DNA of 64,000 bases from Lasiosphaeris hirsuta (Eukaryota; Ascomycota; Sordariomycetes; Sordariales; Lasiosphaeriaceae), in contig JAUKUA010000003.1 in the NCBI GenBank assembly GCA_030549175.1, positions 496,001 through 560,000 of the forward strand, read 5' to 3'. Shown in pieces: positions 2,439 to 58,568 of this stretch. Numbering within the stretch: the first letter of the stretch is position 1; each line of letters opens with the position of its first letter. A model generated the notes under the pieces. The model did no database searches, was not told the origin of the DNA, and was given only the letters and a program-made list of their open reading frames with translations. The position numbers and the translations under genes were made by a program.

Positions 2439-3148
2439 GTGTCAGGGCTGGAGGTCGATGTTTATGCCTTGCCGACTGATATCAGCTTCTTGAGCTGCCC
2501 CGGGGCCACTAGGGTATGGTGCTGTTGCTTACGGGAGCCCACACCACACATCCCTCAACGAAAAGGTTTGTAAGGCAGTGAGCTCGGGCTGACCAAGACT
2601 ACCCGGAACCCACAATGGCCATCACGAGTGTGTGGCTGTTGGGCCCATGGAATACGCTCTAGTGGCATGCGAGCAGTGCCGACAGTATCTAGGTGGCACC
2701 TTCAATTGGGCACTGGTTCCAGGAGTAAGCACTCTGTTTCTACAGCCGCATATTGAGAGGCCGGTCTGCGGATTTATCTTGTGCATACCTCTGTGCCATC
2801 ACTGTTAGGGTCGATATTTCACTCAATGTCTCTTTGGCTGCCGACTTGGGTAGATTGAGAAGAGACCGGAAGCCGTTATGATCCCCCTCGTTTGTCACAG
2901 GCACTTTCTCTCCTCTACAATTGAGAAGTTCCTTCCTCTTACGTGGCCGTATCATTGTTCTGCGCTTCCACTCGTTCCTGCCGCGCTGAACGATTATGTG
3001 CACGGGAAGCTGTGACGGGGATGGCAAGCGCCATCATGCTTGAAGCCAAAGGACTGCCATAGTTTGCTGTCTCGGCCTTGATCTCCCGGTTGTCATTCGG
3101 GTGCCAGAACTCAGATCGAGCTCGCTCCCGGTGCAGACACCCCCGACG
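2439..3148. other. intergenic, no supported gene
   Basis: Upstream region shared by the amber-interrupted secreted gene (minus) and the Ser/Thr-rich secreted gene (plus). It holds short unrelated ORFs only; a 95-codon minus-strand ORF (2740..3027) has no recognisable feature. Confidence 0.45.
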
Positions 3149-4700: not shown

Positions 4701-5396
4701 GGCTGTGTTTGGGGGTTGCAACAGCGACACATGTTGCCTATTGCCCGCATCAAATCGGGGGTTGACGCCATCTAACGGCATTACGAATTTTTGGAACTCA
4801 CTGGCATATTTTGCAACTCGGCCATTACCTTTTTCTCCACGAGGAGGACATAATTTTGGACGCGATTCCCTTTCTACGCCCATGTTTTGGCATGTACCTA
4901 GAAGAAAGAGGGGGCAGGTAATTGTAATCCAATATTGACACTGATTCAAAGTCTCTCGGCGGGCGCTGAATGAGCGCATCTGAGTCATTGCCTGTTTTGA
5001 GCTTCGAGCGGAGACAGTAATGACGGATTACGTTTCTTGACATGCCTGAAGCTTTGGAGTGTGGCTTTACAAATTCTTGAGCCAAAAGGGGAAGGTTTGT
5101 CGTTCTAGCGGTTCCGGAGGACCTGATTGGGCTCGCTCATTCCACACTGCGACGACACGTCTTGGGCTGGCGACTTCCACTCACACACCACGAGACCAAG
5201 CTTACCGGCCGAAAGGATTCATCGCCATCTCCGACCGCATTGCAGATTCCCACGCACCGGGCTCTTATACTTGGCTTCCCACCGTTGATCTCTGCTTTGC
5301 CCACGAGTCAATGACTTCATCAATGCCGCGCATCCCGTGACAATTCAACCACGCTCCTCGCAGTGGACATTTGGTGGACATTCCAGTTCGCTCACC
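4701..5396. other. intergenic, chitosanase upstream region
   Basis: No supported gene. It contains the 3' flank of the secreted protein gene and the presumed promoter of the chitosanase gene. Confidence 0.5.
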
Positions 5397-42313: not shown

Positions 42314-43438
42314 GCCGCGGGACTTACGTTACTGCATCATTCATGTTTGGGAGGAGTTCTGCGAATGTTGGGTCTCGTCTGGTTTTGTTTACTTCTTTGT
42401 TTCTGACGTCGTTTTTTTTTGCCTCGCTACATTTGATTTTTTTTTTTTTTTTTTGGTTTGAACAGAGGGCAGGATATCACGACAGCGATGACTCGGAGTT
42501 TTTACTTGTATGTACCTTGCATCGGAACGGGATCATGAGCCACTGGCGGGTTGGGTTGGGGGAAGGCATTGGAAGGGCATTGGGAAGTAGTTTTGCATTT
42601 TGGCGGGGGAAGTCCGAGTTGGCGCATCTAATTTTAGGCATCCGCTGTATTGTACGGATTGCGGAGCAAGCCGGATGGGCTGCGCAATGGATTGTTCTGC
42701 GCTGTATGGCTGCACAAAGCCCTTGTCTCAGCACTTGTGCCCCGAGTCGCTTGTCGTGTCCCGAGCCCACGAGCCCACTTGTTGCCAGGTGACATCATTT
42801 GCTGCCTGACAAAGTCGGCAGCGGCCCGTGACGAGACGTGGCTCAGCTGCTGTTGATCCAGCGATTTGGCCGAGATCCTGCAGCCCCACACCAGCGGCCA
42901 CTCCCATGCCCGCCCCAGACCGCCCCACCTGCCGGTTCTGGCTGGATCGCTGGCCGCTGGCCGCTGGCCGCTGGCCACTCACAGCCCGCCAAAACATGGC
43001 GAGCATTGGGCACAGCAGCGCGCTTGCCAGCTTGACAAGACCCAACTTCCTGCCTTTTCATGCCGCCGAGCCCCTTCATCTTGATCAAGGTCCTCTCTGA
43101 AAATGTGGCCGCCGGTCTCTTCTCATTTCCCTGCTGTTTTCCTTCCTCGGTGATTCTTATCTTTTTCTTCTTCTTTTTTTCCCGTCCCCTTCTTCGAGGT
43201 TTTGCATCGCCATTCCCCTCGTCCTCACCCTCGCCCTCGCCCTCACCCTTGCCGTCGCCCTTCCCGTCGCCCTGCCCCAACCCCGGCGAATTTCATATCC
43301 CCAGGCACTTTGCGACCCCCGAAACACTGTCCCCCAATGCTAACAACAAGGGATTGGAGCATCACCTCCGCAGTGCAGCACACGTCTAAGCTGGCTCTGA
43401 CGTTTCTTTTCTTGCTTTGTGACATAATTCTCCAAAAG
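42314..43438. other. intergenic between paralogues A and B
   Basis: T-rich 3' flank (T runs at about 42413 and 42439), then GC-rich and C-rich low complexity. A CCCTCG-type hexamer repeat around 43220-43275 lies within the probable 5' UTR or promoter of B. The triplicated CTGGCCG near 42951-42973 is a local short repeat. Confidence 0.5.
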
Positions 43439-46330
43439 ATGAAGTACGTTCCTGTGTGGTTGATGAGTCAACTCCCAACTAATCCTCTTCTAGCAAGACC
43501 CTGCGCCGGTCGCTGGCGCCATTCGCCATTGCGGCGACCTCCCTCTCCCTCTACCAGAGTAGCTTAGGTAGGTCTTGTCAACCCTCACTTTGTGTGTCAC
43601 GCGCCTAACCGCTTTGTCAGATGTTGGCTCTACTCACAGTGACCCAACAACACTGGACAGCAAAGCGGACTCGCCTTCCTTCTTGGACGAGAAAGCTTCC
43701 AGCATCGGAGTCCCGGTACCTGCTCCCCCTTTTCTCCTAGGCAGCAGCCCCATCAGGCCAATCTCGTCCACGTTTGCATCTTTCGTCAGCCGACTGCGAT
43801 CTGGCATCAAGCTTGGCTTCAGCACGGATCAAACTGCTGTGCCGGTGTTGGAAACCAGCCCGGAAACTCGCAGCGACGATGCCACCTCCCACGTAACCCC
43901 CCTCCTGAGAGCGATGCTCCGCTAAGCGAGAAGGTCGCCGAGCCCATTGACGCTGCACCCGTTGAGCATGCCACCCCGCCGACAGAAAAGACGTTTGTGC
44001 CAGCCGACGATGCCGTGTCGCCGACTAACACGAGCTTCATGTTGACTGGCGAGGCGTTTGTGCCGGTCGGGATTGCCACGGAGAAAAGTGCGGACTGCAC
44101 CACTCCTGAGAAGTCATTCGTCAGCAATGCCGTTATTGACAGTGTCAATGACGTGTTCGACATCAGCGGAGGAGCCTTCGAGGTTGCTGAGACAACTCCT
44201 TTGGCGTTTTACCAAACGCGTGAAGAGGCTCCCGCCGAGAGGGGCACAGACGAGATTGCAGAGCTTTGGGCTCAGTCAGCAGAGGTCTATGACCTCGAGG
44301 CCATGCCAGTGCAGTTTTCCCTTGTCGACTCTGGCGAGCCTGAGCCTGAATATTGCTTCGAGCCAGTTCCCTTTATCCACTCAGTCCCCGAGCCTCCGAA
44401 AAAGCCGACAGACGGGTATGACTCGACGATGGACTTTTCCTTTGCCGCTTATGCCGAGTCTGAACCGGACAGCGAATATGACTTTGAGCCGGCGCCATTC
44501 ATGCAGACGGATATCTTTGAGCCTCTGATACAACTCGCCGAAGCCCAGGAGCAGCAGCCCGCGTATCATGACACAGATTCCATCCAGGACATGCACGAGG
44601 AACCTCAGGTTAAGTTCAGCGGCGAGTTCGGCAGCGACTATGTGCCGTATGCTTACGCCGAGGCCCCCAAGAAAAGCACCGTCGTAGTCCGGACATACAG
44701 CTGGGACGAGGAAGCCTTTGAGTTTCTCGATGACAGCTTGCTCGTCGCATCCAGCGTCCAGGAGACAGACTTTGAGAGACACGTGGTCGTCGAGGACATG
44801 AACATTGTGTACTGGAACGCTCCGGGTCCCGCCAAGTCGGAACGTCAGATTCTTGCCGAGGCCTTGAGCACCTCGTCCGTCAGGCCGAGCATCCTTCCCC
44901 TCGAGTCGCTCGCCGAGGATATTTTTTCTCCACCGCCGCCGCCTGCCATCCTCTCCAACAGCGCCAACACTGCAGAAAGGAATCTCGGTAGATTCAATAG
45001 CGATGTTGGACTTTCTATGGAGAACAAACGCAGGACGTTGGCCATTGAGAATAATGCTTACGAGGGTGCTTTCAAGACCGAGGCTGAAAAGTCTCACTCG
45101 CGTCACGCATCAATGAGGTATGTGGCTATCAAATCTTTTTGCGCACTCCCGTCTTCATTCTAACACACTTGCAGCAGCGCTGCCTCATCGGGCACAGCTC
45201 TGAGCGAGGCCTCTCGGCCCGACAGCCCCAACACCGACTACCACGACGACGATCAAGCCGTCAAATTTGCCGAGGACGAGCGGTTCCGCTCGGACGCCGC
45301 ATCGACCTGCGAGACGGTAACCGGAGACACCGCCAAGCGGCCCGACGCAGCCGACCAAGACGCCGAAGACCCCCTCCAGCCACCACCCCTCCCGCACGCC
45401 GTCGACAACCCCAAGCACCACCACCACCCCCAGCCCCACGCCTTCCATCACGACTCGTCCCCCGCGCCCCCGCACGAAGCACCGCCGCTGTCCTACGAGG
45501 ACCAGTACGCCGGCGACGACGATGACGACTACACCGCAATCTAGGAAATCGCGGAGACTTTCCCCGTCCCCGGCGGCCGCGCCGGCACATTCGACCTGGT
45601 CTACGCCGTGACGACCGCCGGCGAGGTCTGCTGGTACCGGCCCGACGTGCAGATGAAGCTGCCGCTGAGCGCGGAGCAGAGGGCCGAGTTCGCCGCCTTC
45701 TACCCCGGCTGGGAAACGACGGCGGCGGTGGCGGCGGCGGCGGCGGCGGCGGGTAGTGTGAGTAGCGGGGGACGTCTCGGCTTCGACGGTGGTGCCCCAG
45801 AGGAGCCAATTGCTAGTGCGAGTGCTAGCACTGGCGATGGGGCGGGACGGTCATCGGACGACGGCGGTGGGGAGGGAAACGAGGGCCAGGGGGTCTGGCG
45901 GCCGACGGGTTTGTATACCATCTACGAGGAGGACGAGGAGGGGCTGGAAGACTGGGTTCCCCCCGGGGAGGCGCCGGTGGAGGAGGAGCCGGCGGCGCCG
46001 TCGCCGCTGCGGATCATGCAGACGAGCTGGGGCAGCCACAGCTTTGTCGACCCCGGCGGGCTGATCAACACGCACCACAACGCCTATGTCCAGAGCGGCG
46101 GGCTGAGGCTCCGGCGGTGCCCGTGGTTCCTCCTGGCTAGGAAACAGGGGCTCGAGAGGGGACCGGGCCCCGAGATCAGACTGACTACGCCCGAGGGAGA
46201 TGTGTTCTGGCCGCATGACCTCACTTGGTATCCCACTAAGCGGTCCTGGGCTGACATGGTGGAGGAGGATGAGGAGGAGGAGAAAAGAGCGAGGGTCATG
46301 GTGGGGAGCGGCTCCAACGCTCACTTCTGA
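43439..46330 (+). CDS. paralogue B of the amber family; frame interrupted by conserved TAG
   Basis: Exons 43439..43443 (ATGAA), 43494..43567 (74 nt), 43621..45117 (containing either a 74-nt intron 43893..43966 or a one-base loss in a C6 run) and 45175..46330. Exon 2 encodes KTLRRSLAPFAIAATSLSLY, an Arg pair followed by a hydrophobic segment. The long middle is acidic and Pro/Ser-rich with SHSRHASM at the intron 45118..45174 junction. The frame reaches DDDDDYTAI, then TAG at 45542-45544, then runs on for 261 codons: EIAETFPVPGGR, VYAVTTAGEVCWYRPDVQM, a poly-Ala/Gly stretch, SWGSHSFVDPGGLINTHHNA and PGPEIRLTTPEGDVFWPHDL. It ends in an acidic tail. The product is 623 aa if TAG stops, about 885 if decoded. 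Family not recognised. Confidence 0.72.
45542..45544 (+). other. conserved in-frame TAG, paralogue B
   Basis: Codon 624 of the predicted frame. Context ACC GCA ATC TAG GAA ATC GCG. The frame is open before (from the phase-2 intron) and for 261 codons after. Confidence 0.9.
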
Positions 46331-47332
46331 CACGTCTGTCTTTCCTTTGTGGTGTTGCTTCTTTGGTGTGTAGAATCTGTTGTGAATCTTTTTTCTTTGG
46401 GGGATTTCCATGGCAGGGTTTTAAGGGTTTCCCTTCACGGTCGGTTGGATTGGGTTTTGGGATGGGCTTGGAATATGGGCTTGATGGGTGGAAATTTGCT
46501 GTTTTGGTTCTGGCATGGCCTTGGGGGCCGGTTTAGGTTGGGATGGTGTCTGTTATATCGGGAGATTGTATTATACCGGCATCCCCTATATACGGCAGCG
46601 GGCCTGCCAGGGAAGATACTTATTTCGCTAATAAATAAAAATTGTATTTCAGCTCGTGGGCCCTTCACTCTCTTGCTTCGGGGGGCGAGAGGATACGGAC
46701 GCGTTCTGAGGGTTAATGCTTGATTCTTCCTCGCAGCAACGCCGCAACGCCGATCTAAACACCGAGGCTATTTATTTTCTTGAAATCTATCAAGAGAATT
46801 CTGAGCAGCTTCCCTCGTAATTTTCTTTTGTTCTCATTTTGCTTTCTTGGTGGCTTTCTTCGTGTTGAAGGCTTGACACCCCAGGCTGCCGCACGAGCGC
46901 CTTGCATGTCCCCATTCACTCCCCTGTTCCCCGTTGCCCTAGCAAAACAGACTTCCATTTTGGGCTAGGAATTGCCCCCCACTTTCTCTTAAACCACCCA
47001 CCGTGTGCGCCCCTTGCTCTGGAGACATTCTTGACGACGACATCATCGCACCCGCAACTCGGCCTCAACCTTCTGATCAGAATTTTCACAGCATCTCCAC
47101 GAGGATTTCGACCGGACCGCCAAACCTTCTACGCCTACTTGGTTATCTAACCTTTGATCATCCTTTGTCGTCTGCTCCGGCAACCTCCGAGTCTTTGCAA
47201 CCTCTTTGCAACTCTTTTTGCATCCAAGGGACTGAGTCTCTCTTGGCCAAATTGCTCCGGCAACCGACTGCCATCAACTCTTCGCCACGCATCTCAAATA
47301 TATTCTCACTAGTAGTATTCGTCGTCGACAAG
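46331..47332. other. intergenic / 5' UTR of paralogue C
   Basis: No gene. The last 400 nt are pyrimidine-rich, as in the leaders of the other paralogues, and probably contain the transcription start of C. Confidence 0.5.
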
Positions 47333-49021
47333 ATGTAGTAAGTGCCCAAAACAAGCCACATCTTGCTCATTCACCTCCAGTCCCGCGAGTACTCTGAACA
47401 ATTCCCCCAGGGTCTTTTGTCGTCCTGCCAGCTAGCTCTACCGCATATCCATTCTGGTCACTTTGACTGACACTGAAGTAGTCAAACCGCTGGCTTCCGC
47501 CGGTCCCTGACCCCAGTTCTCGCTGCCGCTGCCGCGGCGACAATCTACATCAATCAGGGCAATGCCGGTGCGTGTTTTAGCAATTACCTTGCGGTGCATG
47601 AGGCACATCGTTTGCTAACTTTGACAACAGGCATGGCTTATCCTGTCTTTGCCCATCGCGACTGGGCTATGGGACAAACCATTTTTCGCAAGGCCATCGG
47701 CGGAACCCCTAATACCGTCTCATCCCTTCATCCACTCCATTTGAGACTGGATGGCAAGGCATTTACGCCCATCTCGAGCGCTTTTGCCAAGCTCATCAAG
47801 GGCATCGATTTCGTCGGAGAGTCCCTCCTCCTGCCAGACAAAGCGCATAAAATCGTTGCGGTAGGCGCTCCAGACGAGCTGCCAATGCCCCTGAAAGATG
47901 AGACGGAGGCAACTGCCCCCACCCAGGTTACGCCAGCCGTCTGCAATGCTGCCTTTCCCGATGAAAAGCGCAAGGCTGCTTCGGAGGTGCGTGCCACGCA
48001 TAAAGAGTCGCCAAAATCCGACGCAGCACAGTCAGATACTGGTGACCTGGCCAACTCCGCAGAAGACGATGCCAGCTCGACCAACGACAATGATTCCGTG
48101 ATATAGGGAATCGCGGAGACATACGACGCCCCGGGAGAGCGAGACTTTGAGCTCCAATACGCGGTGACCGTTGGCGGTGAAGTTTTCTGGTACAGACCAG
48201 ACGTTGAGATGCGGATGGATCTGAGTGAGGAGCAATTCCAGCAGTTCGAGGCCCTCTATCCGAACTGGGCCAGTGCCGCTAGGGAACTTGCTTCACCCAG
48301 CAACTGGGATTTGGCCGGCGAAGACGAGCTTTTTGATGACTCTGTCATTGACCGGCTCGCTCTGCTGATGGGATCTGGCGAGGTCGACGACGACCTCGAG
48401 AGCTCGCTCCCTGAGCAGCCACGGGAGGTCGAGGAGCCCCGTGAAATTGAGAAGCCACGGGAAGCCTCAAGACGTCGTAGCGCCAGGCTGGAGACCATTG
48501 AACTGGCGAACATTGTGGAGGAAACAGAGGAAGAGCTGTTTTATTTCTTGCACGAGGAGTATGACTCCCTCGACGCCGAGAGTACATGCGCCGTTGATGG
48601 CGATGCTTCTTCCGACCTAGGGGAGAATATGTCGTACGCCGAAGAGTATGCCCCTTTTGATGCAGAGGAGGATACCGAGCCGACTGATATTGCGGCAAAC
48701 ACTGAAGAGCAAGATCCTTGCGATGGAGAGGAAGACACGGGACCGACAGTCATTGCGGCCAACCCCGAAGAGCAGGCTCTTTACGAGGAAATAGTCAACA
48801 GCTGGAAAAAGCACAGCTACATCGACGAAACGGGCTACATCAACACGCAGTTGAATGCCCATGCCACGGAGGGCACCTTGCGTCTCCCTCGCCTCTCCTC
48901 GGTTGTCCTCTTGCCGAGAAGGCAACTGGTGGGGCGGTGCTCTGGCCCAGAGATAACGGTGACGACGCCAGAGGGCGAGGTTCTCTGGCCTCACGACATC
49001 GCTTCTTACCCCAAATGGTGA
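47333..49021 (+). CDS. paralogue C of the amber family; frame interrupted by conserved TAG
   Basis: Exons 47333..47337 (ATGTA), 47482..47567 (86 nt) and 47631..49021. Unspliced, the ATG is followed at once by TAG, so splicing is obligatory. Exon 2 gives FRRSLTPVLAAAAAATIYI, again Arg-Arg plus a hydrophobic run. The middle part ends SSTNDNDSVI, then TAG at 48104-48106 (codon 189). The same frame continues 304 codons: GIAETYDAPGERDFELQYAV, GGEVFWYRPDVEMRMDLSEE, a long Glu/Asp-rich region containing a roughly 20-residue repeat (PTDIAANTEEQDPCDGEEDT / PTVIAANPEEQALYEE). Then come SWKKHSYIDETGYINTQLNA and GPEITVTTPEGEVLWPHDIA. The product is 188 aa if terminated, 493 if decoded. There are no other stops or shifts, which is hard to reconcile with a decaying gene. 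Confidence 0.78.
48104..48106 (+). other. conserved in-frame TAG, paralogue C
   Basis: Context TCC GTG ATA TAG GGA ATC GCG. Codon 189 of 494. Confidence 0.9.
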
Positions 49022-49881
49022 TGGTCCGGGGTTTGCGTGCGCAAGGAGATGGACGTGGGGGGAGAGACTTGGACCGAGGAGGGATTTGCTAGTCCTGCGG
49101 GCCCCTTGGCAACTGTCATATCTTGCGGAGCTTTTGGCATCTGGCATGCTGTTTGTATGTTTTTTTTTTTTTTTTTGTATTGGTTATGGGCTGGAGAGTG
49201 GGTTTGGGGGTGAAGTTGAATATGTCGAACATGATTGCTTGAAAGGACGGGTGTTTGGAAAGGGGTACTTGTTGTTTACTGATTGACTGTGGGATGGTAA
49301 TCATATCATACACGCATGTGTGGCCAGTTAAATATAACCGGTGTTCATATCCCGGTAATAAATAGACTAGACTACCGCCTCTTACTACATGGTGGCACTA
49401 CTACTACATGGTGGCACTACTACTACATGGTGGCACTACTACTACGTGGTGGCACGATGCGACAAAGGCTTTCGGATTTCGCCAATCGTGGTTGAGTGCT
49501 TGGCGTGGCGCCTATGTAGACAGAGGCATGATGACCACCCCCCCTTGGGGAACAGTGGACAATAGGATGATCCAAAATTAAGAACAATGTCTGCTTGGTA
49601 ACATCTGACCTAACAACACGATACGAGAAATGGCCTCGCAGTATTGAGCCAGAGACTCTCTCGTCGTTCCCCAAACAGACTTTTGAACATGAACATTTGA
49701 GTTTTATTAGTTGCACTTAGATACCCGCGATTTAGAGAGATGCCAATCCACCTTCAACTTTGCACCTTTTGGTCTCCGCAGCTTTTCCTAGACCAATTCT
49801 ACCTTAAGTAACACACCCACGATAGCTACCCCGACGACGCTTAGAGAGTTTTGGATTTCTACTCTCACAGAGACTCTACCC
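49022..49881. other. intergenic with 19-bp tandem repeat
   Basis: 3' flank of paralogue C with a T run (about 49161-49176), then a four-copy 19-bp repeat (49383-49455). No gene seen. Confidence 0.5.
49383..49455. repeat. 19-bp tandem repeat, 4 copies
   Basis: Unit TACTACATGGTGGCACTAC repeated four times; the last copy has one A->G change. Confidence 0.92.
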
Positions 49882-50964
49882 ATGACTGGCCGAGGCCAGA
49901 CCGCCCCTAAGGGGGTAGTGGTTCGAATAGTCTTTAGTTTTAGTTTTCCCCGGCACAGAAGAGTCAGCGATCAGCTAGAAGTCCAAAAGGAAGCCATCGA
50001 GTATCTAAAACTGCGCATGCGCTCCACCTTGCTGCGCTGGCTATTCCTCGGGGGGCTAGTTGTCCAGGGTAACGATGCCGAGCACTTCAAGCTAGCTTAC
50101 TCGAACCTCCCATCAAGATTCGGATTCCACCGTTATCACAAAGAAGTGTTCGACGCCGAAGTGGTTACCCTTCCAGTCGTGAGGAATTACACAGCGCTGC
50201 AGCAGTTCGGGGTCTCGAAGGAGTTCGTTCAGCCATGGGTCATGGACAAACACTTGCTTTCTTTGTCCCCCGACCTCACGGTGGAGGCGCCAGCCATGCC
50301 ACCCCGTCACCTTGAAGGCCAACTTCATTGACGGAGGTCTACTCTTGTGTTTCTCCTTTGACCACAGGGTCATGGATGGTGGCTCGATCGCTGAATACCT
50401 CAAGTACCTTGACAGCGATAACGTACCTACCTGGACCCAAAATATCGATTCCCTCGTGGAAGCCAGGAAGAGGGTCCTGGAAATGGAAAAGTGCGGCGCT
50501 CTTTCTTAGTATGACATTGGAGAAGGAATTGCTTACCCGTAAGAAGATTCTTACTAGTCGCCTTCGGCTGGCGAGATCTTCCTACTCTCGGCAACATGTT
50601 CATCCGCCTGGTCTCGGTCGCCACAGTGCAGGAGCTGGTGGAAGGCGGCCCCCCGGGGCCACAACGCGGGAGAAGGTGATCACCGAGGCGGCGTGGTGCA
50701 TCCGCAAGACGGTCGAGAACATCGGCAACCAAGTCCCCGGCACCGAGACTAGCAAGGCTCAGTGGGTGGCGCAAGACCTACTCGGTCAGGGACGGCGCCA
50801 TGAACATCCTGCCGCGCCAGGTCGGTGCCCGCGGCGGCGCGCTGTGGGAGGTCCTGCTCGCCCTACGCGCTGACGATATGGAGAAGATTCGCGGCGAGGA
50901 GGAGCTTGGGCGGTACTCCATGGAGTCCTCCGATGTTGAGTATGTTGTGGATGATTCCGAGTAG
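49882..50964 (+). pseudogene. BAHD-type acyltransferase pseudogene (trichothecene-acetyltransferase-like)
   Basis: First frame: LLRWLFLGGLVVQGNDAEHF, FDAEVVTLPVV and QPWVMDKHLLSLSPDLTVEA. The frame is lost near 50297-50305. The next carries VTLKANFIDGGLLLCFSFDH and the BAHD catalytic motif HRVMDGG (H-x3-D), ending at TAG 50506-50508. Later frames keep LGNMFIRLVSVATVQELVEG (position of the conserved YFGN region), KVITEAAWCIRKTVENI and a C-terminus LWEVLLALRADDMEKIRGEE, to TAG at 50962-50964. The family transfers acyl groups from acyl-CoA to alcohols or amines of secondary metabolites. The DFGWG motif is not legible. At least three frameshifts. It is inserted between paralogues C and D and unrelated to them. 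Confidence 0.72.
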
Positions 50965-51705
50965 TCGGAACAGCTGGGGCGCGCCCAAGTGTCCGACGGC
51001 AACTGGAGTTAGGCAAGTAAATACGGTAAGAAAGGGAAAAAATGATGATATTCCCACTCATCATAACTTTTATTTGCACTGTGATAACTTGAGTGACGAT
51101 AGATATATGATGCCAATTTTGTAGTTTGGGAGGCAGACGTGGGAGCCGAGACCTGCGGGGAGTGTCCCAGGTCCGGGCCCCGGGTAGGCGAGAAGGACGG
51201 GATGAATCTCGCACAGGGTGGGGCAGAGAGTGTCCAGGGACAAGCTCACTCACTGCCTTGAGGCCTTGCGCCTTTCCGGTGGACTCTTGGGCTTGCGGCC
51301 TGAGGGGGAGTTACCTCTGCGCAGCGCATGGCCTGTGCGCATATTCCCGCGCCGCTTGGCATGTGCGCGCCGCGCCCGGGAGCCATTCACTTATAAACTT
51401 TTGTGGGGCTACAACCGTCCTCCTCCTTCCCAACTCTTCCTTCAACCACCGACACCCTACCTTTTCTCCAAGTCGATCAAGATAAAAATTGCGCCAGCTT
51501 TCGGAACAATTCTCTAGCGCAAAACATTTGCTTTCTTCTTTGACTCTCCATCTCTTCCTTGACTATCTCTCTCACACACCCTCTGTCTCTCCCTTGCGCG
51601 CTCTCATCTTTGTTCTCTCCTGCTGTCTTACACTCGAGGAACATTTTGGATTGCTTTCCACCCGTGTAGACACTCAGCCGGTTCTACACTTTTACCCAAG
51701 ACGAG
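50965..51705. other. intergenic / 5' region of paralogue D
   Basis: No gene. The leader upstream of D (51400-51700) is CT-rich, with stretches such as CTTCCCAACTCTTCCTTC, resembling pyrimidine-rich fungal promoters. Confidence 0.5.
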
Positions 51706-54046
51706 ATGACTTCCTTGTAAGTCGACTCTCTTGCATAATCTCCCTTGTGTTTCGCCCACTTGTTACGCTTTGTCTCGCGCTCCCGCGCCATCACAACAAA
51801 ACATTGATGGGAATTCCATGGCTGACGGAAGTGAATACAGTCGGAACTTGCGCCGTGCTGCGGTCTTCATTGGAGTTCCCGTCGCCGCTTACATGCTCGT
51901 CTCTCGCATTATTGGTAGATCACCAGAATCCCCCTTTGGAGAAATAACTCGAATGCTAGTAGTTCTTCACTGACACACAGCAGAACGTGAGACCAACGAG
52001 CCTTCCGCAGACAACAAACGGAATGAGTCGTTGACCGAGGCCCCCCAAGCCGAAGCCCCTACGACAACGCCAATGAGTCAACAATACGCCTCAGTTTTCA
52101 AGGCTGTGTTCACCTCGGTTGCCGCCTACGAGGCTGGCGAACCCGAGGTGATGGCGGTCGATTCGAGCGCTGAGACGATTTCTCAATGCACTACGGATAA
52201 CGCTCTTACTGGGGTTGTTATTACTTGTTGCGGCCCGGATGCTGCAAAGCATATCACCAAAGACGCTGTCCATCCGAAGTCTTTTGTCAACAGCGCCAAC
52301 TTGGAGGACGAGGTCGAGCCTAACACCGCGGGTGACATCGATATTCTCCACACCCCAATCAAGCAGGATTCTCCAGGCGGCCTCGTTGATGACACACCCG
52401 CTACTGTGGGCGAGCGAGTCATCGTCGATATTCCATCCATTTCAACCTCATCGCCACTCGCCAGTGAAAACGAGGAGCCCGAATCTGTTCGGGGTGTTGA
52501 CAATAATGATGACGATGACGACGAAACATTCAGCGGCATCGATGAGGACCTACTCGAGTATGTGCAGGAGCTATCCAAGGTAGTGCCGACATTTGAGGAA
52601 TCGCTGCACTCCCGAATGTCCTCTAGCAGGTACGAGACCTCCTTCATCTGACGTTCTTGGTGGTTGGTTGCTAACAATTTTCTATCTAGCTCCATTCTTT
52701 CATCCACCAGTAATTTGGACAGCATGAAGTCATTTGGTTCTCCTGTCACCGATTACAGCAACAATGGCGATGAAGCGATGAAAACTCTTTTCAATCCGGA
52801 AGACGGTATCCCAAGCCGGATCAAGGCAGTCAGACTTCCTAGTCTCAGCACAGCCAGTGCTTCAGATGCATGGGGTGTTTTGGCTGATGAGATAAATCCA
52901 AATGCTGCCATTTCCCTCGAGCATGAGCAAAGTATCGACTTCCAATTTCCGCATGTCCAGGACAAGATCGATGTGGGAAGCATCCCCATTTCGGACAACG
53001 ACGAGGACGACAGTGAATCCACGACCTAGGATGTTGTGGAGGCATTTGTCGTACCTGGCGACCGTGATTTTGAGCTTTTGTACGCCCTCGGGAATGACGG
53101 AGAGGTCTGTTGGTGGAGACCTGATGTCAGCATGGTGATGACCATGGATGAGGCACAGATCGGCCGCTTCCACCAGCTGTACCCTGGGGCTGCCAGCCTT
53201 CGGGAAGAAATCCTTTGCCCACACCTGTCGGACTCTGATCACACAACCCAGGAAGAGAATAGCTTCAGCCAGAGCAGCGGTTCGGATGATGCTTCCATGA
53301 GCTGGGTAGTTGTGGAGACCTTTATCGTCCCCGGTGACCACGACTTCGAGCTGCAATATGCACTTGCAGACGATGGAGATGTTTACTGGTGGAGGCCCGA
53401 CTGCAGCAAGGCCATGAAGATGAGTGAAGTGCAGGCTACCCACTTCTTCCAGCTCTACCCGGAGGCCACTAAGCTCCGCAACGACATCCTTGAGCAACTA
53501 GAGGCGGAGGATTGCGTGGGTTCTCCCCACGATCACTATGATGCCCCTAAAACTACCAGCGACATCTCGGACCACGGCGAGGATGATTGTGACAGCGACT
53601 CTAGTTCCGATTTCATATCAGACTCAGAAGCTGAGGGTACCAACAACCTCGCCCGCTGTGACTGGATGTGGCTGGGCAAGAAAGAAATGGTGAAGCCTTC
53701 GCTCGGGCCCGAGCTGAAGCTTACAACATCCGAGAGCGAAGAGTACTGGCTAGAAGAGCCAGACTATCTCACCTCGCACACCGAGATCGACGAGTTTGGG
53801 CATCTCACCATCGATCCATACAAGGGGCCCATCGAGCTGGACAGGGAGGCCTTCGGCAACAGCGGCCAGGTCGGAACCCTCCAGAAGTGCACGTGGATAG
53901 CGTTTCCCACAAAGAACGCCCTTTGCAGGAGCCTGGGCCCTGTGATCAAGGTCACCTCGCCTGAGGGCAAGGAGTCGTGGCTGGAAGATCTGGCCTACTA
54001 CCCACTGGCAAACTCATGGGCCGATCTTGACGAAGAGGAGGAGTGA
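51706..54046 (+). CDS. paralogue D of the amber family; TAG plus duplicated module carrying TGG
   Basis: Exons 51706..51716 (11 nt), 51841..51914 (74 nt), 51984..52629 and 52690..54046. Exon 2 reads RNLRRAAVFIGVPVAAYMLV, an Arg pair plus hydrophobic segment. Intron 52630..52689 is at the HSRMSSS position, phase 2, as in B. The frame comes to ISDNDEDDSESTT, then TAG at 53027-53029 (codon 357), then 338 codons without a stop: DVVEAFVVPGDRDFELLYAL, NDGEVCWWRPDVSM. The module is then repeated: SMSW VVVETFIVPGDHDFELQY, DDGDVYWWRPD. In this second copy the codon aligned with TAG is TGG (53303-53305). Two copies of the GPE/LTT module follow (LGPELKLTTSESEEYWLEE; LGPVIKVTSPEGKESWLEDL), ending WADLDEEEE. 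The product is 356 or 695 aa. The acceptor at 51984 could be 51981. Confidence 0.78.
53027..53029 (+). other. conserved in-frame TAG, paralogue D
   Basis: Context TCC ACG ACC TAG GAT GTT GTG. The paralogous internal position at 53303-53305 is TGG (context ATG AGC TGG GTA GTT GTG). Confidence 0.9.
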
Positions 54047-54539
54047 GAGGTGGCGGGGGATACTGGTACATCCGTATTTCCTCCACATTCCACAAACACT
54101 GGCTTACCAAACCGGATTGGGTCTAGACTAGTCACACGCCTTTGGACATTATCAACTACCCCTATCTTGTTTGTCGACTCATTTTTCCCCATTTGTGCGC
54201 CAGATAAAATAAAACAATCAAAATACGTGGTCGAAGTTGACGTCCGAGTCATGCCTTGTGGTACAGAAGGTGAGCATTGTGACTCTGGAGCCGCAAACCT
54301 GTATATATAGTAGTGCAACCGCCAGCAGTGGAGAGGCAGCGGGAACATTCCGGCTGGGTATATACATGTAAAGAATTAGTCAAATATTTGGACTATAACT
54401 ATCTCCTGGCCTTATCTGACGGGAAGACTGCCTCCAACCTGAGGCATCAGTGACGGTTGCCCCAGCGCCGGAGAGGGGTGCTGGGTGTCGTTGCGGGCGG
54501 TCTATGCACAAGGCTGCGCAGTGACTGGTCTGGTCTGTG
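54047..54539. other. intergenic, paralogue D 3' flank
   Basis: No gene seen. Confidence 0.5.
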
Positions 54540-54607
54540 GCCTGATGCACGGCCAATCAGAAGGCTTATTGTTGCCTGATGCACGGCCAATCAGAAGGCT
54601 TATTGTT
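54540..54607. promoter_or_regulatory. 34-bp perfect tandem duplication containing CCAAT boxes, upstream of paralogue E
   Basis: Two identical 34-nt copies (54540-54573, 54574-54607), each with GGCCAATCAGAAGG, a good match to the CCAAT-box core bound by the HAP/NF-Y complex. Located about 270-340 nt upstream of the E start codon. Binding is inferred from the motif. Confidence 0.65.
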
Positions 54608-54875
54608 TTTATTAGTCGCTTTTCCAACTTGGTCCCACTCTCTCTCCCGCAACCAAACCTCACCTCGGATCGCGCACCTGGGCAACCATTTTGCACATAC
54701 AAAATTCTTCACTAAGCTTCGCGCAACCATTTCCCTTTTTACTGTCTTCACCCTACCCTTCCCTATTGATACTTTGTAGCAATCAGCATTGAGCTTCTGC
54801 TATCACCAGTATTCACTGGAATATTCTAGGCATATAAAGACACCCTCTCCCAAACACTTGACAATTCTGAATAAG

Positions 54876-56853
54876 ATGAGGTAAGTTCAAATGTCGCACA
54901 ATCTGCCCCATTCCTACAGCTCGACCTTTCCTTCAAGACAATATTGGTGCCACCTTCATCCTCGATCACTGCAACCACCCGAAAAAATGGCTAACCAGTC
55001 CGTCTGCAGTCTCTCTGGTGTTTCCCGCACCTGCGAACTTGTGGCCACTTCAGGACCTTCTGCTCTGGTCACCCGCCTTGTTAGTATGTTGAACCTTGAT
55101 ATCCAGCGCCATACTTACCCTCCAGAGCCTCTTCCACCGATACTAGAACCCTCAACTAATTCATCACTACTTCCCTCTAGAGCGCCATGACCCGTTCGGT
55201 AATCGCGAGTCCCGTCACTCCGAGGCAAAGACCTTGTACTCGGTTTACAACACCACGGCCGTAGGACTCGGATCCAGTTTGCGCGAGAAGTTTCTCGAAT
55301 CAGCTCTGCCTGCTAAGACGCTTTATCAGAACTTCCGCAACTCTTTTACCATCTCTGAGGCCATGTTTGACTCAGCCTTCCACAAGAACATTGTTGATGA
55401 GAATATCGCCGCGACGGAGCCGGCTACTCCCATAACCCAAACACTTACCACCCCTCCGAAGCCTACCGATCGCGTTGCGGGCCTGGTCGACCCTTTTGTG
55501 CCCACTTGCGCAACAGTAATGCGGGACTCTGCTGCTGCTGCTGCTGTTGTTGTTGTTGTTATTGGCGATGATGGAGGGGAAGATCTCAAAGTCAACAAGC
55601 AACGGAACCGCATTCAGGTCTGCGACGTAGCTGTTGAGGATCGAGAGAATGTTGCCACGGTTATTCCTGACAGCACTGCTGAAAGCACCAAAGATGACGG
55701 AACGGACGGGAACGCCCATTCCCGACAATCTTCCCTCGGGTAGGTCGCTTTGCCGGCCTCCCTGAATTCCTTCATAGCCGATTGGTGCTAACGCTTTATA
55801 CCTTGAAGTTCCACAACATCCATGATCAGCAGCATTGATCGGATCACATCTCTCGGGTCTCCCAACACTGAATACTGTGATGAAGCCCCGATTGACTGCG
55901 ACGACCACTTTGAACTCGATGTCTACACCGAGAATGCAGCAACAATATCCCTCTTTGAGGATGTCGAGAATGGTGAGGCACAGTTTCCGGCAGAGGACAA
56001 CCTGCCGAGCGAGTCATCAGGTTTGGTCGAGAGCAGCATCGAAAACATCAAAGAAGCTGCAACCTCTGAGAAAGACCACGAGCAGTCTTCCATCTCCGAT
56101 TGCTCGGTATCTCGGACTGTGCAGCACCAGGACACCCAAGATGATGGCTTCAGTGGCGATGACGACGAGTCTGCGATATAGGAACCCATAGACCCCGTCA
56201 TCGCCCAGGCCTACGCGGTACCCGGAGAGAGAGACTTCCAGCTCGCATGTGGTCAAAATTGACGGAACAGTGCACTGGTACATGCCCGAGCACGGGGTGT
56301 CCAAGATCTTGAACGAAGCAGAATTCGAGCAGTTCTACATGGTTTACCCCGAAGCTTCCAAGTACCAGCAGCCGCCCCCTGGGGAGGATCTTTCAGACTC
56401 GCATGCGGAGGTCGCTGTTGGAGACGCCGTGGATGGTGTCGAGGGCACCAGCAACATTACCACGAGCAACGAGTGTACAATCGAGAGCAGTAAGGATGAC
56501 ATTGACGATGGCGAGAGCGACGAGAGCCCCGCATTCATCCCGGACCCCGAGGAGAATTACCACACCCGTTCACATATACCGGGCTCGAGCGTACTGACTG
56601 GGGGAAGTACAGTCGCATCGACACGGAAGGCCGCATGTATGTGATGCGGGACTTTCTGCAGTGCTGTTCTCTGAGGAACTACTGGCAAACTTCTTGCGAC
56701 TGGTACCTGTTTCCCAGCCGCGCCGACGGTGTCCGTGGTACTGGGCCAGAGCTCAAGGTGACGACACCTGATGGGGAGGAGTTTTGGCCGAATGACATCA
56801 GGTGCTACCGGGACATCTCATGGGCCGATCTCGACGAGGAAGAGGATTACTAG
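54876..56853 (+). pseudogene. paralogue E of the amber family; TAG conserved but frame broken twice downstream
   Basis: Exons 54876..54880 (ATGAG), 55010..55083 (74 nt), 55181..55739 and 55809..56853. The exon 2 length and phases (2, 1, 2) are the same as in B and D; the intron at 55740..55808 follows AHSRQSSLG. The frame runs to FSGDDDESAI, then TAG at 56179-56181 (codon 337), then YAVPGERDFQLA. Near 56238-56250 the frame shifts, and VVKIDGTVHWYMPEHGVSKI continues in another frame. A second shift near 56560-56600 leads to DWGKYSRIDTEGRMYVMRDF, GPELKVTTPDGEEFWPNDIR and WADLDEEEDY at the end. The N-terminal part up to the TAG (336 aa) is intact; the C-terminal part is decaying. A poly-Ala/Val stretch (GCT/GTT repeats near 55530-55560) lies in exon 3. 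Exon 2 is less hydrophobic than in B-D. Confidence 0.7.
56179..56181 (+). other. conserved in-frame TAG, paralogue E
   Basis: Context TCT GCG ATA TAG GAA CCC ATA. Codon 337; the downstream frame is broken about 60 nt later. Confidence 0.88.
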
Positions 56854-57508
56854 GCATGTCCATGCCTCGTGTCTTTCTATCGGGGCCAGAGCCTTTGGAA
56901 TCGTCTGCTAGTGTGCTGTAAGTACCTTTAGACATTACGGAGCGGGGAGGCACTCATTGTTGTACTGCTTATTCTGCTCGTATATTGGTTTCGTCTAGAA
57001 CCATTTTGGTCCGCGCTCGAAGACATTTACTAAGATACCCAGGGCCCCGGGTTAACCAAGGCTAGGAGGACACCACAGCGATCGAATAGAAAATAAATTC
57101 CTAAATAATTGAGGGAGAGGGGGGTTCTTTGCTATGTGAAGAAATATTAAACCCCTGAAATAAGCCCCGGGGGGTATGGACCCCCTCCTTCTGCTGGATA
57201 GCATTTTGCGCCAGCATAAGGGCGTGTTCCAGAATACTTGTCTGACTTGCTTGTTGCAACCAGTAACCTAAAAGGTGGAAGTTGTTTCAGTGCCCACACT
57301 TCGGCCAAATAGAAGTCCAAATGGGTAGAAAGGAACACGCCCTAGGGTGAGTGAAAAGTCAAGTTTCTGATCCCTCAATTCTAACTAGATTTTATTTCTA
57401 GCATGTCAAATGCCTCGTCCGCCTCCACCCGGATAATGGATCTAGACGAATTGATTATCCCGAGCTCAAGTTCAATGAGTCGTACCAGCTGTTAGCATTG
57501 GGTCTGTG
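56854..57508. other. intergenic, no supported gene
   Basis: AT-richer. A short ATG frame at 57403-57495 (MSNASSASTRIMDLDELIIP) could be an upstream exon or uORF of the next gene, but no splice pair is convincing. Confidence 0.4.
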
Positions 57509-57823
57509 ATGTTTTCAAAGTATACGAAAGCGCCGCACCCCTCGGGCAAACATTGCTCAACTTGGATGAAGAAATCTCGCATTGAACCATTTATGGAGTG
57601 TGTCCACTGCGATGCTCCTTTCGCTCAGTATACATGCCTCAGCTGCCTGTTCAGAGGGAAGAGTACTCAATGCGAGTTTAGAAGCGGCAAGTTTCGATAT
57701 GCTTTCCTTTTCATTCTATATTGATCATTCATGTTAGATGCAGAGGAGGTAAAGATGAAGAGCACCAAGCGTATGCGATTTGTCGAGCCGATACTGGAGG
57801 ATGTGAAGGGACTTCCACTTTAG
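57509..57823 (+). CDS. possible small Cys-rich protein with GC-AG intron
   Basis: Exons 57509..57686 and 57738..57823, joined by a 51-nt intron with GCAAGT donor and TTAG acceptor (phase 1), give 87 aa. Exon 1 holds five clustered Cys (MECVHCDAPFAQYTCLSCLF...TQC), i.e. C-x2-C-x8-C-x2-C-x8-C, plausible for zinc binding. Exon 2 is a basic/acidic tail (DAEEVKMKSTKRMRFVEPIL). Without the splice the frame ends at once after the Cys cluster. No similarity recognised; it may be a real small gene or the remnant of a larger zinc-finger gene, as no homologous part is seen around it. Confidence 0.4.
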
Positions 57824-58568
57824 GAGGCCGGAGGGTACCAGACATGTATTTATGCTAAGCTAGCGAAACGGGCTGCAGCTTTAGAGATTCCTGTGACTAC
57901 AAACAAGAGACAGCGCCGTAGGTGAAGTTTGCTTGGGGATACTCTTGGGATTTTTTTATTTGGGGAGTAACAAATGATTTACTCTATGGTGGAGGTACCG
58001 AATCATGGAAGGACATGGGAGATGATCCGGATTACCTGGATGAAAACCTCGAGTGGCTATGATGCCCCGGCTACTCGCCGGGAGAAGTGGGAGCGATCTT
58101 GACCATCCTAATTGGTGATTGGTATTCAATATATAAATTTAGCGTCTTGCAATAAGTATTGATGATGTATCGGGGGACTTGGGCAGTGAACTGTGTATGT
58201 TTGGGAGACCTGTTGGGTTTCTGTTTACCGGACACTATCGGAGCAGCGGATTTATCACTCAGCTGTCTATCTATTTTTAGAATAAGCTCCTTCGTGAGGA
58301 GGGCGAATCGTATTCCCATACTTATCATAGTTCCGATAACATCAAGGCATGCTCCCTCGGCCATTTCCCTCCAGTCAAATTACCTACCTACCTAGCTCAC
58401 CTCCAGGCCATGGATGCTATCTGTTACGGTAGCCAGTGCCCACTACCAAGCAGAATCCCTTATTTTGGATAATTCCTCTCCTTCAATCCATCGCAATTTG
58501 GCAACATCAGGCATCATTCATTCGTTTCACCAACCCTCCCTTACCTCCAAAACGTCACATCATTCAAG
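57824..58568. other. intergenic, no supported gene
   Basis: AT-rich spacer upstream of the secreted-protein gene. Short ORFs only. Confidence 0.5.

Follow-up and report, generated by a model that had tools for sequence, protein, structure and literature searches.

Tandem paralogues of Lasiosphaeris hirsuta share an in-frame TAG that is a candidate for UAG-to-UGG mRNA editing

We analyzed a 64,000-nucleotide stretch of the Lasiosphaeris hirsuta genome (hereafter the window) that carries four tandem paralogues, B, C, D and E, each interrupted at the same homologous site by an in-frame TAG; the original prediction was that this stop codon is recoded by UAG-to-UGG mRNA editing. L. hirsuta and Lasiosphaeria hispida, the only two species in which protein searches matched the family, both belong to the Lasiosphaeriaceae, order Sordariales. 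The four genes are related: each begins with a very short exon, encodes a hydrophobic segment at the N-terminus and is split by small introns. All lie on the + strand. B spans 43439..46330 (exons 43439-43443, 43494-43567, 43621-45117 and 45175-46330) and has its TAG within the last exon; its three introns, B1-B3, were placed by homology, and each contains a CTRAY branch site. C spans 47333..49021 (exons 47333-47337, 47482-47567 and 47631-49021; NCBI gene model P0001), and an annotated L. hirsuta protein was 100% identical to the entire downstream part of C. D spans 51706..54046 (exons 51706-51716, 51841-51914, 51981-52629 and 52690-54046; NCBI gene model P0003). E spans 54876..56853 and keeps the TAG, which is followed by two frame changes that return to the same frame.

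The four TAG codons lie at 45542..45544 (B), 48104..48106 (C), 53027..53029 (D) and 56179..56181 (E), all on the + strand, exactly where they had been predicted, and the candidate edited adenosines of B, C and D are 45543, 48105 and 53028. The accompanying description also proved accurate: in B, C, D and E the TAG follows an acidic stretch and precedes a shared module, and the frame stays open after it for 261 codons in B, 304 in C and 338 in D. Open length alone is weak evidence, because the window has 91 stop-to-stop open reading frames of at least 150 aa; on the sequence comparisons, it is protein conservation, rather than open length, that is the real evidence at these sites. Conservation on either side of the TAG had been proposed as well, and we found it on both sides in D and on the downstream side also in B, C and a fifth copy on another contig, C10. 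This fifth copy, comprising the acidic tail, the TAG and the module, sits inside a different, longer reading frame; it shares 81% DNA identity with B across the TAG, and its TAG is at the same site. Relative to C, the module after the TAG was 50% identical in B, 44% in the first and 36% in the second module of D, and 45% in the C10 copy. In all five copies, the acidic tail and the module lay in one frame.

We then considered whether the TAG could be an ordinary nonsense mutation, or the true end of the protein, with the downstream part decaying. The ratio of nonsynonymous to synonymous change (dN/dS) after the TAG had been expected to be low, and this held in part: values were low for B and C (0.26) and for B and the first module of D (0.27), but the pair B and C10 gave 1.49. 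With the second module of D, the values were 0.31 for C and 0.57 for B, and the whole downstream part of B and C gave 0.35; the ratio was not calculable between C and the first module of D, or between the two modules of D, where synonymous sites were saturated. Among B, C and the first module of D, changes after the TAG were commonest at third codon positions, and synonymous change was near saturation. Decay would fit the frameshifts past the TAG in E and the lack of any sign of purifying selection between B and C10. However, the TAG is common to paralogues whose synonymous sites are nearly saturated, the frames of B, C and D remain open for 261-338 codons, dN/dS is low for two of the pairs, and dinucleotide indices of repeat-induced point mutation (RIP) were not elevated, with a composite index below 0 in B, C, D, E and C10. 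We therefore give decay only a slim chance. We also rejected an origin of the TAGs by RIP, whose signature was absent from all five copies.

The strongest evidence for editing is, as far as sequences can tell, the residue that L. hispida has at this site. A comparison of codons with orthologues had been suggested, and it placed a tryptophan exactly at the TAG of D, in an uninterrupted continuation of the acidic tail: the L. hispida orthologue, P0004, reads EDDSESTT-W-DIVETYVVPG where L. hirsuta D reads EDDSESTT-TAG-DVVEAFVVPG (alignment at the site: P0004 EDDSESTTWDIVETYVVPGDRDFELLYAL versus D EDDSESTT[TAG]DVVEAFVVPGDRDFELLYAL). The two were 57.5% identical over 301 aligned residues before the site and 65.2% identical over 89 residues after it. 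Since a related species spells tryptophan there in one gene, the stop is probably rewritten in the mRNA. When P0004 was used as the query in a translated genome search, its matches to D, C, C10 and B each crossed exactly one TAG, and its match to E began past the TAG of that gene.

A second tryptophan was found within D itself, where a TGG at 53303..53305 (+ strand), ahead of the second module, is homologous to the TAG site. P0004 stops at this point: its C-terminal end, ...DDKASTS, falls exactly where D has DDASMS-W ahead of the second module. Thus, L. hispida has tryptophan at the first junction and the end of the protein at the second, and L. hirsuta has the reverse. BLASTP against model P0003 paired the module of P0004 with the second module of D because the first junction is missing from P0003. 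P0004 aligned to the first module when compared with the unspliced frame of D, and in the translated search it was 75% identical to the first module versus 52% to the second.

The NCBI models raise another possibility, namely that an intron ends at each TAG, with TAG|G as the acceptor, and is spliced out. Model P0001 of C skips 47987..48106 (+ strand; GTGCGT...ATATAG) and reads AASE|GIAET, and model P0003 of D skips 52973..53029 (+ strand; GTGGGA...CCTAG), a stretch that includes EDDSESTT. C has an acceptable donor in GTGCGT, and GTACGC occurs 40 nt ahead of the end of the TAG of B. The L. hispida orthologue of C, as modelled in P0002, likewise runs straight into EIAET; its junction starts elsewhere than in the L. 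hirsuta model and may reflect an in-frame stop in L. hispida C too. Branch sites tell against such introns. In ten introns placed from homology, frame and splice signals, a CTRAY branch site began 11-21 nt ahead of the intron end in every case (10/10); the 120 nt ahead of each of the five TAGs contained no branch site, and 61 of the 1565 YAGs of the window have one at that spacing. The placement of these introns agrees with the NCBI models for C1, C2, D1 and D3, and for D2 too except that a neighboring acceptor is used there. The original prediction had noted no consistent donor, and our scans agreed: the donors used in C and D are unrelated, and neither E nor C10 has a GTRNG donor in the 120 nt that lead up to the TAG. 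In D, moreover, the end of the skipped stretch is exon in L. hispida, because P0004 reads EDDSESTT through the tryptophan into the module, and in all five copies the tail and the module are in one frame. From the branch-site and donor scans together with the P0004 orthologue, we judged an intron ending at the TAG very unlikely. The intron in P0001 at the TAG is probably an annotation artefact, and these results suggest an error at the site in the publicly available models of both C and D.

We next describe the immediate surroundings of the TAG. In all five copies, the base before its adenosine (-1) is U, the base after it (+1) is G and position +3 is a purine, a context that is favorable under the flanking-base preferences of editing given in PMC11156358. 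Stable hairpin loops are reported in PMC9600606 to favor editing while weighing less than the flanking bases. In minimum free energy (MFE) folds with 30 nt on either side, the adenosine fell within a hairpin loop in every copy except B (4/5), compared with 31% of 411 TAGs of the window. The candidate editing stem-loops of C (48095..48117, + strand) and D (53018..53040, + strand) each have eight of eight pairs closing a 7-nt loop (AUAGGGA in C, CUAGGAU in D) with the adenosine third. The corresponding candidate of B (45533..45555, + strand) has the same loop length and adenosine position with six of eight pairs, as does C10 in pairing; the hairpin of B formed with 15- and 20-nt flanks and was absent from the MFE fold with 30-nt flanks. 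Among 3789 other TAGs, drawn from both strands of the window and of 52 partly overlapping loci, two had eight of eight pairs around a 7-nt loop with the adenosine third. Against draws of synonymous codons, the stability of the stem was exceptional in C (P 0.0035) and marginal in D (0.073), and three pairs carried double changes, which is suggestive of covariation. A search of Rfam over 43000-58000 gave no match at gathering scores.

In the anticodon arm of tRNA, A34 is the third base of a 7-nt loop, follows U and stands on a stem. The stem-loops of C and D resemble this substrate of Tad2-Tad3 in loop length, in the place of the adenosine, in the U before it and in the supporting stem; they differ from it in being mRNA stem-loops inside a coding region.

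The genome also appears to hold part of the editing machinery. Three DUF726 loci were found, one with MV (L019), one with KN (L020) and a third with neither. In L019, MV lies 88 residues ahead of the aspartate of an ND motif, and its paralogue L020 has KN at the same spacing. According to PMC11087585, MV replaced KN when Ame1 acquired its editing role in Sordariomycetes; we assumed that the ND aspartate of L019 is D589 of that report, in which case the spacing differs by one residue. On these grounds, L019 would be a DUF726 protein of the Ame1 type that carries the MV linked to editing, and L019 and L020 match the MV/KN distinction. PF00383 had 11 matches in the genome, which may include Tad2 and Tad3.

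A scan of kinases pointed the same way. We scored 122 of 250 candidates; 14 rows had an internal TAG, and one of the 12 that were inspected fitted PUK1. This kinase stretch, on contig C1, has TAGTGG (L067:1072) at the position of the WW in CDWWS of a yeast relative, and N. crassa NCU03242 is described in PMC4817773 as having TAGTGG at the DWWS motif likewise. We call this kinase PUK1-like and consider its TAG a likely conserved edited stop in L. hirsuta. Its adenosine, too, lies in a predicted hairpin loop.

Together, the tryptophan of P0004, the TGG of D, the absence of branch sites (0/5), the predicted hairpin loop in four of five copies, the MV of the Ame1-type protein and the PUK1-like kinase support the editing that had been proposed. 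We regard A-to-I editing of UAG to UGG, read as tryptophan, as by far the best reading of the sequences, with a probability of roughly 0.84. The Tad2-Tad3-Ame1 deaminase would convert the A of UAG to inosine, and the edited codon would be read as UGG (tryptophan). Translation would then continue through the conserved module, VPGxRDFEL...GEVxW[YW]RPD, and the remainder of the protein, whereas the unedited mRNA would give a short form consisting of the N-terminal hydrophobic segment and the acidic tail. By analogy with Fusarium and Neurospora, we infer that such editing would take place and be confined to fruiting bodies, with a short vegetative form and a long sexual form, and that the short form would matter.

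If ribosomes passed an unedited UAG at some rate, the same two products would be expected from the same conserved downstream frame. One leaky type of readthrough context is UAG-CAR-YYA. Here the stop is followed by GAA, GGA, GAT, GAA or AGA, which is not of that type, and the tryptophan of P0004 and the TGG ahead of the second module of D fit UAG-to-UGG exactly. Readthrough is accordingly a highly improbable account of these genes.

Several observations weigh against the editing of UAG to UGG. Because the ten introns were placed by eye, their branch sites do not make a wholly independent control. The frame of E ends 26 codons past its TAG, the two frame changes come after that, and E may be decaying. 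Between B and C10, we counted 4.5 synonymous and 18.5 nonsynonymous changes after the TAG; the resulting ratio of 1.49 means that purifying selection is not seen on that pair. The 31% background for hairpin loops comes from a set of window TAGs that contains the four sites themselves. E has five of eight pairs, and its stem-loop is lost in the 7-nt geometry; it scored 0.02 against the synonymous codon draws, yet the structure is unstable (+0.6). The stems of B (0.30) and C10 (0.22) did not go beyond those draws, and the covariation was not significant by column shuffles (61 of 500 reached the score). The PUK1-like site forms none of the eight pairs around a 7-nt loop and prefers a loop of 6 nt, so this geometry is not general. 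From the codon draws, the shuffles and the pairing, we take the stem as good evidence in C and D only.

UAG-to-UGG conversion is a known outcome of A-to-I editing in Sordariomycetes, with about 70 premature-stop-correction (PSC) genes in F. graminearum, as reported in PMC4817773 and PMC11156358. PMC4817773 further describes false introns given by automated annotation at 69 edited F. graminearum genes, and some CHE1 orthologues were misannotated likewise at the edited stop according to PMC11169179. The present family resembles PSC genes of F. graminearum and N. crassa such as PUK1/NCU03242 and AMD1 in having an in-frame UAG in a conserved frame, with tryptophan expected after editing, and in the U at -1, the hairpin loop (here predicted in four of five copies) and the false introns in annotation. 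It differs in being a tandem family whose five copies all keep the TAG at the same homologous site, where editing is predicted from sequence. CHE1 of Fusarium is also similar, as PMC11169179 describes a PSC site conserved between species and variously misannotated, including by an invented small intron; however, CHE1 belongs to the zinc-finger genes and its editing takes place in hyphae, whereas here paralogues share the site and one orthologue has tryptophan. We reasoned that this is a new family of an already known edited-stop type, with an unusual pattern that is family-wide and perhaps module-wise. A limited literature search returned nothing on RNA editing in Lasiosphaeria beyond a general classification of eukaryotes, and nothing on the L. 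hirsuta genome.

If editing does occur, a whole paralogous family, and not single genes, would lie behind an edited stop, and the same site would have been retained through duplication and ectopic copying. One could then ask whether edited stops are a selected switch between short and long forms or are merely tolerated, and the comparison of paralogues and of two related genera would provide the means. A more elaborate model is that of a family-wide editable switch, in which each copy has one editable UAG before a module and its other junctions are fixed as tryptophan, while the stop-bearing junction swaps between species. The stop would then be presented in a structure that mimics an anticodon arm (7-nt loop with U, then A as the third base), as is clear in C and D, and selection would maintain an editable stop somewhere instead of removing it. 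We put this model forward tentatively and consider it rather doubtful as a whole.

The proteins themselves gave few further clues. Five pieces of exons from B, C and D, searched at E-values up to 1, matched no Pfam family, and neither did P0004 or two pieces of the C10 frame at E-values up to 0.01. A protein search with the downstream part of B gave no match, under a length filter that would exclude full-length B. The predicted structure of the downstream part of C had a mean pLDDT of 36.8 and was too poor for use.

Some features of the individual genes lie apart from the TAG. B has a frame change upstream of it, near a run of six C at 43897 and unrelated to the TAG, which could be either an assembly error or a real lesion. 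Model P0003 starts at 50800 and has 103 extra leading residues (region 50800-51705); because these precede the conserved start of D at 51706, P0003 is probably a chimeric gene model. The C10 frame that holds the fifth copy (L011:1282-5343) has four interruptions, at 3139, 3163, 3214 and 4099, all of them TAG, and no TAA or TGA before its terminal TAA at 5341. The interruptions at 3139, 3163 and 3214 lie in a Q/G/P-rich repeat stretch, in which some neighboring units have CAG.

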